Shown here piece by piece: positions 5,062 to 22,246 of a stretch of DNA of 37,244 nucleotides. A model generated the notes under the pieces. The model was not told where the DNA came from. It saw only the letters and a list, made by a program, of their open reading frames with translations, and did no database searches. The stretch is from the NCBI GenBank assembly GCA_021775775.1, contig JAJFHF010000013.1:1-37244 (forward strand), given 5' to 3'. The DNA is from Hyphomicrobiaceae bacterium (GTDB taxonomy: Bacteria > Pseudomonadota > Alphaproteobacteria > Rhizobiales > HXMU1428-3). How positions within the stretch are numbered: position 1 is the stretch's first letter; the number at the start of each line of letters is the position of its first letter. The position numbers and the translations under genes were made by a program.

Positions 5062-5489
5062 GCGGCTTGCCCCTTGGCATCAAGAAGAGATTCAACATCA
5101 ATACCCAATCGTTCGCATAGGAGTTTTACTGCTCTATCGTAGAAGAGTTTGAACTTGATTTGATCCATGCTCTCAAAGGCAATTGATCTGGTTACAATGA
5201 AAACTTGCCCATCAACCTCCATTTTATAGTCAACATAACCCAACTTAATTTTGACCCATTCGCTAACCATGTCGGCGGTTTCAAGGGCAGGGTCATTGTC
5301 GGCAACAATCTGATAGATTGACCATATGCGGTCATGGTGTTTAGGGTTCCTTGGTTGATGAGCTTTGATGATTACTGGTCGTTTGTTGGTTATTGTTTCA
5401 AAGTCTCTCATGGCCGCCGCACCATAAGGTAGCAAGCAAATTCTACCTTCAATAACATCTTTGATCATTGTTATTTTTGTCTTGCTCAT
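5058..5489 (-). CDS. DUF1367/NinB-like recombination protein
   Basis: RNPKHHDRIWSIYQIVADNDP...ITRSIAFESMDQIKFKLFYDRAVKLLCERLGID; next to the annealing protein. Confidence 0.65.
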   Translation of the reverse strand: MSKTKITMIKDVIEGRICLLPYGAAAMRDFETITNKRPVIIKAHQPRNPKHHDRIWSIYQIVADNDPALETADMVSEWVKIKLGYVDYKMEVDGQVFIVTRSIAFESMDQIKFKLFYDRAVKLLCERLGIDVESLLDAKGQAA

Positions 5490-6346
5490 GCGGCCTCACT
5501 TAGACGCATTTTGTTTTTATCAAAGGCATCTGCAATGCGTACGCCTTCGTCTAATAAAAAGGAAAACTGGCTTTGAGTGCTGTTAAATTCATCCAAGATT
5601 TCATCTAATATTGAGAGGTCCGGTGCACTATTCATGCGTCCTTCAATATCATCTAGAAATTTACCAGGATCACCCAAGCCTTTTTCAATCACAAGGTTTT
5701 CAGCAGCTTTTCTTAATTCGATTTTTTTCCGCTTAATTTCTTCACGCAGGACATCTTTCCAGCTATCAGGGTAGGCGGTGATGGTATGTTTGTGGCTATC
5801 TACGCATGCGTTTAGCTCATCTTCACTTTGGCAAGCTCTTATGTCAGCTTCTATCGTTGGGTATTTACCGTCCTGTCTGGCCTTGTAAGCGCTTATTTGC
5901 TCTTCACTTGCAACCTGGCTTTGCTGTTTGTCATAAAGCGCTAAACCAAAGGGGTTGCCATACGTCATAAGCGCACGTTTCATGGCGTCAGTTTCAGCTT
6001 CTTTGACAGCGCTTTCTATAGCGTCCCCAATTGCATCCTCTTTACCAAAGCCAGAGCCAAAGCCAGTTCCATCCTTGTGAACACCACCAGCGGTAACTCT
6101 AACAGTTGCGACAAAGGAAACTCGCCATTGTTTTCCATTTCTAGCTTCATGCAGACCACGGCTGGCTTCAAAAAGGGTCACTGTTTCGCGAGACCACCCA
6201 TCAAATCCGAATATCCTGTTAGCCTCTGCTATGGCGTGCCAGCCCTCAACGTAGCTGAGGGACACGCCCGCTTTGGTGCGCTTTTTAATAATGGATTTAT
6301 CTAGAGGGGCGTTAAGTTCTGTGACTTGCTCTGATGTAAACGACAT
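5486..6346 (-). CDS. Rad52-family single-strand annealing protein
   Basis: VSLSYVEGWHAIAEANRIFGFDGWSRETV...GFGSGFGKEDAIGDAIESAVKEAETDAMKRALMTYGNPFGLALY. Confidence 0.9.
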   Translation of the reverse strand: MSFTSEQVTELNAPLDKSIIKKRTKAGVSLSYVEGWHAIAEANRIFGFDGWSRETVTLFEASRGLHEARNGKQWRVSFVATVRVTAGGVHKDGTGFGSGFGKEDAIGDAIESAVKEAETDAMKRALMTYGNPFGLALYDKQQSQVASEEQISAYKARQDGKYPTIEADIRACQSEDELNACVDSHKHTITAYPDSWKDVLREEIKRKKIELRKAAENLVIEKGLGDPGKFLDDIEGRMNSAPDLSILDEILDEFNSTQSQFSFLLDEGVRIADAFDKNKMRLSEAA

Positions 6347-6720
6347 CACTCACCCCCAACAATACGTTCTGATGAACAAATGGCCTGAGTTGCTAGGCCT
6401 TGCATAACCCCAATTGCATTGCTCACTTCAATCGCGTGGTCACAAAACTGGTGATTGTTTTTTTTGCGTTCCCGAGCAACCGCATACAGGCCTTCACAGA
6501 TCATTTGGATCTCTTCGCAGGCTGCAAAAACTTGGTCGAAAGCAGCTTCATAATCGCCTGGCATACAAGGGACAATTGGCGCGTGGTCTTTTATTTCATC
6601 AACAGGGACGCCCGACAGCTTCGCAACCACCCCATTTGAAATGCTGTGCTTGGATTCTGAGAGCTGCTTACCTAGAGATTTGGCGGTGATCTCTTGGCTA
6701 TGGACTAATTTAAGGGTCAT
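6346..6720 (-). CDS. hypothetical phage protein
   Basis: ORF in operon. Confidence 0.55.
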   Translation of the reverse strand: MTLKLVHSQEITAKSLGKQLSESKHSISNGVVAKLSGVPVDEIKDHAPIVPCMPGDYEAAFDQVFAACEEIQMICEGLYAVARERKKNNHQFCDHAIEVSNAIGVMQGLATQAICSSERIVGGE

Positions 6721-8515: not shown

Positions 8516-8574
8516 CCACCATTACCCCCGCGTATTTGGGATCACATACCAATTTTAAACCACGCGGGGGGGCA

Positions 8575-9072
8575 ATGCCTAGCTACACCAAAGCAGCAAC
8601 ATCTTGGACGCCTGACAGGGTTGATCTTTTAAAAGAGCTTTGGGCTAAAGGGCATTCATGCAGCCAGATCGCGGCGCAGCTTGGCGGCCTGACTAGAAAT
8701 GCGGTTATAGGCAAAAAATCTAGGCTTGGACTGCCCGAAAGAAGAACGACTTTAAGCGCTACCAGGCGCAAGAGGACGGTTAAGCAGCCGCCGCAAAAAT
8801 CTATGGCCCAGCCCGTTGCATTCAGAGGACCAGAAATCATCCCTTCAAGTAAACCATTTTCAACCAAAGTTTTCGAAGCGGGTGATCGTAAGCCAGTTAC
8901 GATTGATGATTTACACGGCTTGTCCTGCCGCTTTCCATTTGATGACCAGGACGGCAATCATATCGGCTATTGCGGCGCTACTAAAACTGGCGAGGCTTAT
9001 TGCGATTTCCATGCGGCTATTGCTTATCCAGCCTTAAGGCACCTGGCTGAAAGAAAAGAGGAGGTTGCATGA
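8575..9072 (+). CDS. GcrA-family cell-cycle regulator homologue
   Basis: SWTPDRVDLLKELWAKGHSCSQIAAQLGGLTRNAVIGKKSRLGLPER plus C-terminal LSCRFPF...YCGATKTGEAYCDFHAAIAY. Confidence 0.9.
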   Translation: MPSYTKAATSWTPDRVDLLKELWAKGHSCSQIAAQLGGLTRNAVIGKKSRLGLPERRTTLSATRRKRTVKQPPQKSMAQPVAFRGPEIIPSSKPFSTKVFEAGDRKPVTIDDLHGLSCRFPFDDQDGNHIGYCGATKTGEAYCDFHAAIAYPALRHLAERKEEVA

Positions 9073-9440: not shown

Positions 9441-9483
9441 AAAAACCCCAAATCAAATTTGCCGTTTGAAGAGGGGTTTTTGA
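9441..9483. terminator. bidirectional intrinsic terminator
   Basis: AAAAACCCC (9441-9449) / GGGGTTTTT (9473-9481). Confidence 0.75.
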
Positions 9484-9645
9484 AACAATGACGCTTTTTG
9501 CAGAAGCGTTAAAATCAATCGAACTTACAGAAGGCAATTCCATTAAGTAGGAATGAATTGATGCCTTCGTTTATACACAGGTTCTTAACAGAAGGCAATA
9601 AAATAACATGGAAGGTTCAAACTTTCAACAGGATAATAAGGCCGC

Positions 9646-13903: not shown

Positions 13904-14557
13904 ATGAATATTATTATTAAAGACAAAGCAACCCAAGCGCTTATTGATCGACTAGGAATGAAACTTCTTGAGGAACTTAAAAGGCGCGTATTAGAAATGA
14001 TGGAGCGAGTGAATGCTGATACTCAATCTAATTTAATAGAGGTGGTTGCGTATAGGCATGGGCGGGGGGTTTGTCTTCAAGCAGAGTTCAATGGGGGGCA
14101 GCTTGAGCAGTATTTAAATTCTCAGCATTTGACCTTTGAAGGCCCCTTGAAAAGAAAACCAAAAAACATTGTTAAACCAAGAACAACATCACCAACCCCT
14201 TATAGAGCACTCCCCTCAAAACAGCCTGCAAATTTTATTGACACTCGAGAAATTCATGGAGACAGAGAGATGGCAAATCAAATTAGTGAGCAGCGATTGA
14301 GAGATATAATGAAAGCTGCAAAAAAGCGTGAAGAGTGCCTTCGCGCAAAACCAAGAGACCAGGATGGCGCTATCTCATCAGGTATTGAATTAGAAAAACT
14401 ATTGGACTTGCAAACAGCCACAGCTCTTGTTCGCACCTATCGCGCGGTTCAATCAATTGAAGAAGCAAATTTGGCGGTTGAGACGAGGGCGCTTTCAAGA
14501 TTGATCTCAAATCAAAAATTATTAATTGACGCCTTGGGGGGTGCGCATGGAAATTGA
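13904..14557 (+). CDS. hypothetical phage protein
   Basis: ORF in operon. Confidence 0.55.
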   Translation: MNIIIKDKATQALIDRLGMKLLEELKRRVLEMMERVNADTQSNLIEVVAYRHGRGVCLQAEFNGGQLEQYLNSQHLTFEGPLKRKPKNIVKPRTTSPTPYRALPSKQPANFIDTREIHGDREMANQISEQRLRDIMKAAKKREECLRAKPRDQDGAISSGIELEKLLDLQTATALVRTYRAVQSIEEANLAVETRALSRLISNQKLLIDALGGAHGN

Positions 14558-15263
14558 TAGACAAGCCGCTAAGCAAATACGCGAAGAAAAGGCAAAAAAC
14601 GCCAAAATAAGCTTTGGTGTGCAGAGGTATAACTCAACCACACCAACGCAAGGCCATAGGCATAATACAAGCTATTACCTTGAGCGAATGGAGAAGGGTG
14701 AAGTCGGAAACCCTGAAATAATAGAGGGTAGGGATGCCCCGCCTCAGGCCTTCATAAGCCCAAAGGATGGCCGATATAAACATTTAGCGCCCCCACCACG
14801 ATTAGGAATGCTTAGTCGGCTTTACAGCAATGGGCGACTACGTCTACGACACCTTCGTGCATTGAATCTTTTTCTAACGGATTGCGCTAGAGCACAAGGA
14901 AGTTCAAAAGGGCTAACGGCTCAGCTGTCTGAAAAGGTGGATTGCCCGAAAACACTGAAAGCTCCGGAGGCTTACTTGGGGTCTTATGGGAATGATGCAT
15001 ATTACCGTTATAAGCATATTTATAATGGATTGAGAAACCATGAGCTAGCGCTTTTGGTTTGGTCTGTTGTGCAAGAAATGCTCACAACTGATGAGATCGT
15101 TGCGCGCGACATAGATCGCTCAGGTGACCAGAAAAACGTAGAGACAATCGGGGCTGCCTGTGATGGTTATAAGCACAAAACTGCAGCATCTTCAGCCGGT
15201 ACGGCAAGGCTCCATGCATTGCTTGATTCAATTGCAGAGCTTTACGGATTGAGGGAGGAGTAA
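14547..15263 (+). CDS. hypothetical phage protein
   Basis: ATG at 14547 overlapping previous gene's end. Confidence 0.6.
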   Translation: MEIDRQAAKQIREEKAKNAKISFGVQRYNSTTPTQGHRHNTSYYLERMEKGEVGNPEIIEGRDAPPQAFISPKDGRYKHLAPPPRLGMLSRLYSNGRLRLRHLRALNLFLTDCARAQGSSKGLTAQLSEKVDCPKTLKAPEAYLGSYGNDAYYRYKHIYNGLRNHELALLVWSVVQEMLTTDEIVARDIDRSGDQKNVETIGAACDGYKHKTAASSAGTARLHALLDSIAELYGLREE

Positions 15264-15428
15264 GTGAGGATGTTATCGACCGTGACCAAGTGGTCAAGAT
15301 GTGGCGGCAAAACCACGTGATATGCCTGCAAGTGGCTGATGGTGACTTGTCCGTCATGGAAAAAATCAGATTAAGAGAGCGAAGCGATGTTGATAGATCA
15401 ATATGTGGTGAATGGATAGGGGGGGGTG

Positions 15429-15671
15429 ATGGAGACTGATCTAGATAAAATCAATAAAATTTTTCAAAGTCCATTTGTCCATATGACAGATGAAAAACAG
15501 TTGCAAGCAGAGATCGCACAACGCTTTGATGAGCATGGTATTGAGTATTCAAAAGAGATTGCTGTGACAGGCGGTGTTATAGATTTTCTGGTTTGCCTGT
15601 TGCGGAATGAAAAAAGGATTATGCAAATAAAATCCAAAAACCCGCTTGACACCATGCGCATAGCATGTTAG
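15429..15671 (+). CDS. short PD-(D/E)XK-like protein, possibly truncated
   Basis: EKQLQAEIAQRFDEHGIEYSKEIAVTGGVIDFLV...IMQIKSKN resembles a nuclease core but stops early. Confidence 0.4.
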   Translation: METDLDKINKIFQSPFVHMTDEKQLQAEIAQRFDEHGIEYSKEIAVTGGVIDFLVCLLRNEKRIMQIKSKNPLDTMRIAC

Positions 15672-15674
15672 GTA
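15646..15674 (+). promoter_or_regulatory. candidate late/leader promoter
   Basis: TTGACA (15646-15651), 17 bp, TG-T-TAGGTA (extended -10, 15669-15674). Confidence 0.5.
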
Positions 15675-15693
15675 AATTTCCATAGTTGGAGAT

Positions 15694-15724
15694 GCGCCTA
15701 AAACTCGGTTTTGGGCGCTTTTTT
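15694..15724 (+). terminator. strong intrinsic terminator directly after the promoter
   Basis: GCGCCTAAAAC (15694-15704) / GTTTTGGGCGC (15708-15718), loop TCG, then TTTTTT. Confidence 0.85.
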
Positions 15725-15770
15725 GTGAATAAATTCCTATTTCTAGTAAAGTAGCATAGTAAGAATGCAA

Positions 15771-16390
15771 AGAGGTTGGCAACTGTCCGTCTAAGAAAGA
15801 AGCCAACCCCTCTAATATGAAGTAATCCTAATTCAACTATTTCCAATATTGAAACGGTTATGGCCCTTCCCTGTATGGTCAGGGGTTGTACTCTGACGGG
15901 GGTACCTCTCGGAGCAATGTTGTGCATAGCATTGTGAGCATCGAAGCTCTGAGGGCCACCAGCAATTTTTTTATCGTCTGGTGTATACAGAGGGACGGCA
16001 AACCGACTGTATGTTTATATTTACACCAGATGCTAACCCCACCATTTGCCCTTAGCGGTGGGGACTAATTCAAGCCCCGCACCTCTAGATCGCGTTAAGA
16101 GATATACAATTAGCTACTGTATGCAGGCGATCTACGTGCGGGGTGTCTAATTCAAACAACAATCCAGTTAGAGCAGCCAGGCATGCCCCATGAACGCTTG
16201 AGCGGACCCACCGCTTGCGTTCAACCCAGCACCTCACCTGGTTGCTCTATCCCAATTACACAGGCTCTTTTTGTGTTCACCTCCCTGGCACAAAAACTAA
16301 AGCTTGTGTAACCAGTTTAGTCCACAACGAACCCAAGCGAACCTATACAGAAGCAATCGTAAAACATAGCGCTATGGGATGTTGTGGGCT
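15771..16390 (+). ncRNA. candidate large structured RNA: eight consecutive nested/multibranched stems
   Basis: Stems 15774-15780/15802-15808; 15861-15868/15951-15958 enclosing four hairpins; 15977-15990/16007-16030; 16037-16043/16057-16063; 16075-16093/16127-16143; 16169-16181/16237-16249 enclosing 16191-16197/16217-16223; 16256-16275/16289-16311; 16319-16339/16370-16390. Confidence 0.7.
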
Positions 16391-16438
16391 ATAATGCCTT
16401 TAAATGATTTGGAACAACTACGTGAGGGCAATAGGTAA

Positions 16439-16648
16439 ATGGCTGACGAAATTGAACCTGAATGTCAAGAGGGTGATATCGCCAAAAGAAAAGAGTCTGA
16501 AGACGGAGAAATCGTTATTGTGCCCATATCTTCAAGAGGACACTATCCTGATGAGCCTCATTACTACGAAATAGGGCCTAATGTTTACTTTGATGGTGCT
16601 CAGATGAGAGAGCTAGGGCTAGAAGGTTTCAAAAAAATAATTAGATGA
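16439..16648 (+). CDS. small acidic hypothetical protein
   Basis: ORF with GAGGG about 11 nt upstream. Confidence 0.55.
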   Translation: MADEIEPECQEGDIAKRKESEDGEIVIVPISSRGHYPDEPHYYEIGPNVYFDGAQMRELGLEGFKKIIR

Positions 16649-16953
16649 TAAATCGACGCAAACTCTTACAAGCACTAGGCTGTTCAGGATTGGTGTTAAC
16701 CTTGCCGATTGGGCAGGAGGCTCAGAAGACGCCAGAGACAGCCTCCCAAGATATTCCAGATTTAATGAGCCCTCGGTTTATTGAGGTGAATGTCATGTAC
16801 AGGTTTACCCGCAGTGATCAGTGGAGCGCTAAGGAACAGGATGCATTGATGAAACTCCAGCAGCCAGCCGCTCAATACAACCAAATTAAGCCTAAAAACA
16901 ATAAAGGCAGGCCATCACTATATTTTCAGGCACAAAACCTGTCAAAGACTTAA
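16645..16953 (+). CDS. RR-type signal-like N-terminus fused to portal-like fragment
   Basis: MINRRKLLQALGCSGLVLTLP then WSAKEQDALMKLQQPAAQYNQIKPK, similar to portal WSSEEQEILRKRQQPDTYYNQIRLK at 19283. Confidence 0.5.
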   Translation: MINRRKLLQALGCSGLVLTLPIGQEAQKTPETASQDIPDLMSPRFIEVNVMYRFTRSDQWSAKEQDALMKLQQPAAQYNQIKPKNNKGRPSLYFQAQNLSKT

Positions 16954-17021: not shown

Positions 17022-17046
17022 AACCCGCTTCACGGCGGGTTTTTTA
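17022..17046 (+). terminator. intrinsic terminator (AACCCGC/GCGGGTT)
   Basis: Stem 17022-17028/17035-17041 then T-run and ATTGGAAA. Confidence 0.8.
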
Positions 17047-17062
17047 TTGGAAAGATTTCTAA

Positions 17063-17434: not shown

Positions 17435-17869
17435 ATGGGGGTACTGAAAAACACAAAGTGGGAGTTGTTCGCCCAAGAAATATTAAAAGGTGAGACAGCG
17501 GACCAAGCTTATGTAAACGCAGGTTATAAAAAGAACCGCAAAAACGCCGCTCGCTTGAAGACAAATGAGGACATCATGGCCAGAATTGATGCCCTAAAGA
17601 GGACAGCGGCTATAAAAGCGGTTGTTGATCGGGCTTGGGTACTAGAGCACTTGAAGGAAAATGCTCTTGTTAGTATGGGAAAAATGAGAGTCAAAGATGA
17701 GAACGGGATCCTTGCTGAAACCAATCATAATCCATCGGCTGCAAATGCAGCTTTAAAACTTCTGGGCCAAGAACTTGAAGGCATGTTTATTGATGTCAAA
17801 AAACAAATTGACGATGACGGCAAGGCTGTTGTCCCAGTGATAAATGTTACCATCGGAACTGAATCTTAA
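17435..17869 (+). CDS. terS: terminase small subunit
   Basis: KWELFAQEILKGETADQAYVNAGYKKNRKNAARLKTNEDIMARI; immediately upstream of TerL. Confidence 0.85.
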   Translation: MGVLKNTKWELFAQEILKGETADQAYVNAGYKKNRKNAARLKTNEDIMARIDALKRTAAIKAVVDRAWVLEHLKENALVSMGKMRVKDENGILAETNHNPSAANAALKLLGQELEGMFIDVKKQIDDDGKAVVPVINVTIGTES

Positions 17870-21373: not shown

Positions 21374-22246
21374 ATGACCACCGAAAACGAACCTAACATT
21401 GATAGCATTTTTGATGATGAATTTGAGACTGAAGACGCAGGCGTTAATGCAGCGGATGAGGCTCAAGGCGAGACTACTAAAGAGGTGGTGGAGCCACAAC
21501 CTGAGCCAGAAGGAGACGTCTCTCAAAACGAGACCGAAACGGAAGGTGAGGGGCAACCTGATCAAGATGCCGAAGGTAAAGCTTCGCACATGGTGCCTAT
21601 AGCAGAAATCCAAAAGACGCGGGAGCAGCGTAACGAGTACAAAGCCCAGGTCGAAACGGCTCAAGCTGAATTAAATAATGTTCAGCAATACACCGCGAAA
21701 CTTGAGCAAGAGCACCGCAATTTACTTAACTATTTGGAACAGCAGAACAAGCAGACCAATCAGCAACCTGTTGCGCCTGATCCTTTAGAGGACCCTCAAG
21801 GTTATGAGAGCCATATATTGGGCCAGGCACAACAGGCTTTAAACCCCATCCAAGAACAAATAGCCGAAATTAAGCTTGGGCAATCGCATTCCAATGCAGT
21901 CGCCACTTATGGCAACGACGTTGTGAATGCGGCTGTTCAAGCGGCTGATGCGGCTGGGGTTGGGCAACAGCTCAGGGTTAATTCTCAAAACCCATATGCC
22001 GAAGCCGTGGCTTGGTATCAGACCCAACAATTACGACAAGAAGTCGGGAATGATCCAGCCGCTTACAAAGCCCAGGTCATGAAGGAAGCCCGCGAGCAAG
22101 CGCTCGAAGAGCTGAAAGCTGAACAGTCTCAAGGAAACGCAAATCCAAAGATTCCGCCCTCTATCCGCAACGTTACGGACGCTGGTAACGGACAGGCTCA
22201 AGTCCTGTCGGATGAGGACCATTTTAATAAACTCTTTGATGACTAA
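21374..22246 (+). CDS. scaffolding protein
   Basis: Acidic N-terminus, long coiled coil, between portal and capsid. Confidence 0.75.
   Translation: MTTENEPNIDSIFDDEFETEDAGVNAADEAQGETTKEVVEPQPEPEGDVSQNETETEGEGQPDQDAEGKASHMVPIAEIQKTREQRNEYKAQVETAQAELNNVQQYTAKLEQEHRNLLNYLEQQNKQTNQQPVAPDPLEDPQGYESHILGQAQQALNPIQEQIAEIKLGQSHSNAVATYGNDVVNAAVQAADAAGVGQQLRVNSQNPYAEAVAWYQTQQLRQEVGNDPAAYKAQVMKEAREQALEELKAEQSQGNANPKIPPSIRNVTDAGNGQAQVLSDEDHFNKLFDD

Follow-up and report, generated by a model that had tools for sequence, protein, structure and literature searches.

The window analysed here (37,244 nucleotides from a Hyphomicrobiaceae bacterium, contig JAJFHF010000013.1) contains a prophage whose genes include those for a P22-type portal, the terminase, and early replication. 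A preliminary description had proposed a large ornate RNA at positions 15771-16390, in the gap between early and late genes. This location was correct: the stretch is a non-coding interval after the last early genes and before a small adaptor-like gene that precedes the first packaging gene, the terminase small subunit gene terS (17435-17869, +; Pfam Terminase_2, 1.5e-06; phrog_51, 1e-15). Judged from the list of open reading frames (ORFs), it holds no credible protein gene, as had also been stated; the ORFs crossing it encode 60, 85, and 102 aa, and two of the three are on the minus strand. The last large early gene (14547-15263, +) belongs to a weak family whose other members occupy the corresponding position in related loci (G003, G006, G005, L057, L138, G004, and G007). 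It has no Pfam or PHROG match and no recognisable antiterminator similarity, and its AlphaFold model was uninformative (pLDDT 38), of too low quality for a comparison with Q proteins; its position makes it a candidate late regulator. Elsewhere in the window are a tRNA-Lys gene (66-141), a DUF6745 protein gene near the left end (PF20530, 1273-2322), and a prophage-encoded GcrA cell-cycle regulator (PF07750, E 1.1e-31, 8536-9072). A phage Rad52-type recombinase (PF04098) is encoded at 5486-6349 and may help explain the module exchange described below.

The natural unit is wider than 15771-16390, with a predicted promoter and terminator T1 upstream and terminator T2 downstream. The predicted sigma-70-type promoter, TTGACA-N17-TAGGTA (15646-15674, +), recurs at the same place in relatives: TTGACA-N17-TANNN(A/T) was predicted after the last early gene in all six loci with a readable 5' end, and GCGCC (GCGTC in L057) lies 15-22 nt downstream of it in the same six. 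The window's copy of the promoter matches the consensus weakly (TAGGTA) and is absent from the list of a stricter consensus scan, in which promoter-like sites were about as many as in shuffles. An 81-aa ORF (15426-15671) ends inside the predicted promoter; it is phrog_5928-like (E 1.9e-05) and by eye resembles a truncated nuclease. T1 (15694-15724, +) is a predicted intrinsic terminator with an 11-bp stem and a T run, and its 5' arm, the GCGCCTAAAA motif, is the downstream GCGCC motif of the window. T2 (17022-17047, +), AACCCGC/GCGGGTT with a T run, is predicted before the late genes. Between the last RNA domain and T2, in an interval that varies among relatives, are two short ORFs of 69 and 102 aa (16439-16953, +).

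The eight stems listed in the preliminary description were confirmed at their positions by checking stem coordinates and folding the 620 nt, and they define eight domains on the plus strand. Domain 1 is a hairpin, GGTTGGC/GCCAACC (15774-15808), and domain 2 a four-armed junction closed by TGGCCCTT/GAGGGCCA (15861-15958; z -2.4 when folded alone). Both are known from the fold, and no homologue of either was found among the related loci. Domain 2 has a cloverleaf look and ends in ACCA, and it was considered as a tRNA or tmRNA; ARAGORN and Rfam gave no tRNA/tmRNA match. Domain 3 (15977-16030) is a two-tier hairpin with an invariant loop, GAGGGACGGCAAACCGACTG, and domain 4 (16037-16063) is a hairpin, CCCCAC/GTGGGG. 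The domain 4 loop, TTTGCC, could pair with its complement GGCAAA in domain 3 to give a loop-loop contact. Domain 5 (16075-16143) is again a two-tier hairpin, with the self-complementary AGCT in its conserved loop. Domain 6 (16169-16249) has a 13-bp closing helix around a hairpin, and domain 7 (16256-16311) is a two-tier hairpin. Domain 8 (16319-16390) is a hairpin whose 42-nt core, AGCGAACC...GCGCTATGG, is invariant; a perfect palindrome, CATAGCGCTATG, lies within the domain. The recurring two-tier build that had been described thus stands for domains 3 and 5 to 8, to which we confine it. The stretch is not a simple repeat array, as the same description had held, since the sole recurring piece is a 9-nt linker, CTAATTCAA, present three times.

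The predicted fold of the 620 nt is mostly a string of hairpins, with an energy of -224.9 kcal/mol compared with -177.0 ± 6.6 kcal/mol for dinucleotide-shuffled sequences (z -7.25, with 0 of 20 shuffles as good). This shuffle control had been suggested along with the original proposal and came out in its favour. The minus strand of the same 620 nt gave z -5.5, and the plus strand had the better z in all eight leader regions folded. When both strands of the whole 37 kb window were scanned in 160-nt stretches, the most extreme was 16161-16320 (+; z -9.8), followed by 16241-16400 (+; z -6.0). Other strong folding stretches in the window were 21681-21920 (-; z -6.0), 961-1120 (+; z -5.5), and 9441-9600 (+; z -4.7), the last of which lies between ORFs.

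Comparison of relatives, which had been proposed as a check, bore out a structured plus-strand RNA, with compensatory changes in domains 3-4, 5, 6, and 8. Given that the stems had been named from the window alone, the pair test is fair. Across domains 3-6 and 8 pooled, 159 of 163 homologous pair cells were paired, with 12 two-sided Watson-Crick changes, although homologues are few and some stem from recent recombination, so that independent events are fewer than pair cells. For domains 3-4 in five loci, 98% of cells were paired, including all helix cells of domain 4, and two pairs, both in domain 3, had changed on both sides. The covariation score here was 0.170 compared with 0.084 ± 0.023 for shuffled alignments (1/500), and fell to ≤0.095 when slid. 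Domain 5, whose homologue is in L054, showed CG>TA, AT>GC, and CG>GT changes relative to the window, with one C.A and one T.T mismatch (2 of 16 cells unpaired). In domain 6, all 13 pairs were retained between the window and L057, and three had changed. The MAFFT alignment of domain 6 was too poor for pair counts, and its support comes from this window/L057 comparison and from single-sequence folds. The full domain 8 hairpin, present in the window, L057, G003, and L138, showed one CG>AT change plus G.U exchanges. The domain 3 loop and the domain 8 core are invariant while the stems vary. Domains 1, 2, and 7 were without compensatory-change support in the loci compared, and domain 7 is identical in L057, which makes that comparison uninformative. 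Note that the seed alignment (A3) has inserted N letters for column register; pair counts were taken from an alignment of real sequences (A9). Furthermore, 8 G.U cells compared with 1 A.C cell were found across domains 3-6 and 8, and this excess points to the plus strand as the functional RNA.

Parts of the element are carried at the same site by seven further prophage or viral loci, four of them from hosts of the same genus. Of seven other species of the genus searched by BLAST, three carried the domain 3-4 part, and one of those three also carried domain 8. A covariance model of domains 3-4 and a pattern scan of genome contigs added L054 (JAJFHO010000034.1); 40 of 44 pattern matches in genome contigs were chance matches according to the covariance model. 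IMG/VR yielded L057, whose terminase is 99% identical, and L138, which has domain 8 in common. A search with the last early gene yielded G004, with promoter, hairpins, and a domain 6-like domain, and also G007, in which a 668-aa protein gene (L162 1920-3926, -) stands after the last early gene in place of the RNA. In 398 genomes from the order and 387 from the class, the domain 3-4 model matched only within the same genus. No match to the element was found in phage and plasmid DNA collections, no domain 3 loop in pattern searches of IMG/VR, and no domains 3-4 in 80 IMG/VR loci with a large terminase (TerL) related to that of L054. The known extent so far is eight prophage or viral loci in a small group of mostly uncultured Hyphomicrobiales.

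The single fixed ornate RNA first envisaged did not survive this comparison, because subsets of domains differ by phage and the 5' part is wholly different among them; the predicted RNA is a mosaic, pieced together from hairpin domains that phages can exchange. Domains 3-5 are common to the window and L054, domains 3-4 are missing from some relatives, and G003 and L138 have a domain 6 and domain 8 in common. Domain 6-type domains occur once or twice per relative, with similarly closed domains in G003, G004, G005, G006, L054, and L138 (two in L138). Between the window and L057, near-identity begins at the 3' arm of domain 6 and continues downstream, whereas the sequence upstream is unrelated. 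The 42-nt domain 8 core is identical in five loci, and domain 8 is missing in G005 and G006. L054 keeps the core and has lost the 5' arm; a small ORF ends where that arm would be, which counts against the hairpin being needed in that locus. Several pieces were also seen around these domains. A further hairpin-like domain, TTGGATAAGATCGGAA..., is shared by G006 (L008 3522-3593) and L057 (2802-2873) and absent from the window, and a terminator-like CCCCAC...GTGGGGTTTCTTATATG hairpin lies upstream of the other domains at L006 8124-8160, L008 3070-3105, L054 1-30, and L138 10310-10350. Inside the domain 6-like domain of G004 (L161 3010-3055), GGGTTCGATTCC resembles a tRNA T arm and was not scored as a tRNA. 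In G005, a tRNA-Thr (TGT) gene (L007 148-224) lies immediately 3' of domain 4, the one relative with a tRNA neighbour.

Alternatively, the hairpins might be a by-product of palindromic DNA in a packaging (cos/pac) or recombination site at the early/late boundary. The position before terS, the perfect palindrome in domain 8, the domain 8 core without its 5' arm in L054, and recombination of phages at this place, such as the window/L057 switch at the domain 6 3' arm, are consistent with this. On the other hand, the phages that bear the element have four TerL types downstream, which makes a packaging site unlikely, and the asymmetry of G.U over A.C (8 to 1) points to an RNA of one strand. A dispersed palindromic repeat was rejected as well, as each genome has a single copy, which always occupies this site in the prophage. 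We conclude that the element is probably not a packaging site, and a DNA element of either type seems very improbable.

Membership in GOLLD or ROOL, the precedents that had been named, was not borne out: neither the window nor the seven homologous loci gave an Rfam covariance-model match at the gathering threshold, nor did 15600-16500 at E≤5. The suggested novelty relative to Rfam did hold, as no family, including tmRNA, was matched; the relaxed search returned just a chance miRNA match, and overall only tRNAs and chance matches were found at gathering and relaxed thresholds. By Rfam standards, it would count as a new RNA family; its general kind, structured phage RNA, is known, and its modular build is unusual. 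It could still be a large stand-alone RNA of the GOLLD/ROOL kind, whose copies would fold and assemble into a particle as the cell lyses, irrespective of late-gene control. Its length, elaborate fold, and prophage location would suit such an RNA, as would the tRNA gene abutting it in G005, and the domain 3/domain 4 complementarity and the AGCT of domain 5 could give loop-loop contacts like those described for GOLLD and ROOL (PMC12286853). However, there is no Rfam match, the prediction is mostly a hairpin string, and the swapping and loss of domains among relatives fit one precise multimer poorly, so we consider this explanation rather doubtful.

The distribution of T2 bears on how the element might act. 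Among seven loci scanned, those with T2 were precisely the four in which domain 8 is complete (the window, L057, G003, and L138); both are lacking in G005 and G006, and L054 has a different terminator. Termination before the late genes is consequently not general. This co-occurrence, and the two tandem conserved hairpins in a late-operon leader, would fit an RNA antitermination leader acting in cis, in which domains 3-4 and/or domain 8 would alter their own polymerase in the style of HK022 put and thereby carry it past T2 and later terminators. However, domains 3-4 are absent from L057 and L138 despite T2, and the element is far larger than put. Such a leader seems rather doubtful; it and the GOLLD/ROOL-like particle are the main rivals of the reading favoured below.

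Building on what is shown here, namely a conserved and modular structure, its strand and position, and the sequences of promoter and terminators, we propose, at about even chances, a late-leader RNA of modular build that would also be a stable product with a role of its own. A plus-strand RNA would be transcribed from the conserved sigma-70-type promoter directly after the last early gene and fold into separate hairpin domains, and in the window it could end at T2 just before the late genes. Without the late regulator, the promoter would give a stable non-coding leader RNA, as in the pR'-6S-tR' arrangement of lambda. The product of the last early gene may then act on polymerase, letting transcription continue through terS and the late genes. 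Most likely, the folded domains represent a stable RNA acting on its own, to which protein or RNA might bind via the invariant loops of domains 3, 4, and 8. The pR'-6S-tR'-type layout, together with the regulatory RNAs known 3' of PR' in lambdoid prophages (PMC4104026), favours this late-leader reading. Against it stand the lack of T2 in G005 and G006, the weak promoter match in the window, the absence of recognisable antiterminator similarity in the last early gene, and G007, where a protein gene rather than such an RNA comes after the relative of that gene.

A bolder and quite doubtful proposal is that these phages have a new class of RNA, with a precise core (domains 3-4 joined by a loop-loop contact, plus domain 8) that would carry interchangeable hairpin cassettes, each binding a different host factor or joining copies through self-complementary loops. 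If so, phages would reassort RNA functions like accessory genes. Only a few large structured RNAs are known from phages, and what they do is poorly understood. If phages that differ in their packaging genes exchange such an RNA domain by domain, modular phage evolution would have its counterpart at the RNA level. Given the absence of an Rfam match, the comparative support, and the site at the early/late junction, the function should be testable with simple deletions.

GOLLD is expressed during phage lysis and forms a multimeric cage, its 3' region is universally conserved and its 5' region variable, and both ROOL and GOLLD occur near tRNA genes in phages (PMC12286853). The element resembles GOLLD in being a large structured prophage RNA with a more variable 5' part and, in G005, a tRNA neighbour, but it is shorter, has no Rfam match, and has swapped hairpin modules in contrast to the universally conserved 3' region of GOLLD. 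ROOL and the element are alike as large structured prophage RNAs of similar length with no known protein partner; the element differs in its mosaic build and lack of an Rfam match, and multimers of it are hypothetical. In HK022, the hairpins of put RNA modify the polymerase that made them, and terminators are then read through in cis. Like put, the element has a pair of neighbouring conserved hairpins in what would be the leader transcript of a phage; the element is much larger, antitermination by it is hypothetical, and the two were compared by description rather than sequence. In lambda, pR'-6S-tR' comprises a promoter after the last early gene, a non-coding leader, and a terminator before the late genes. 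The element is likened to this pR' leader (6S RNA) by a similar predicted layout rather than by sequence, but it is several-fold longer and far more structured, and the gene upstream has no recognisable similarity to Q. The lambda pR' region and the element are also alike in that small genes are gained and lost in each.
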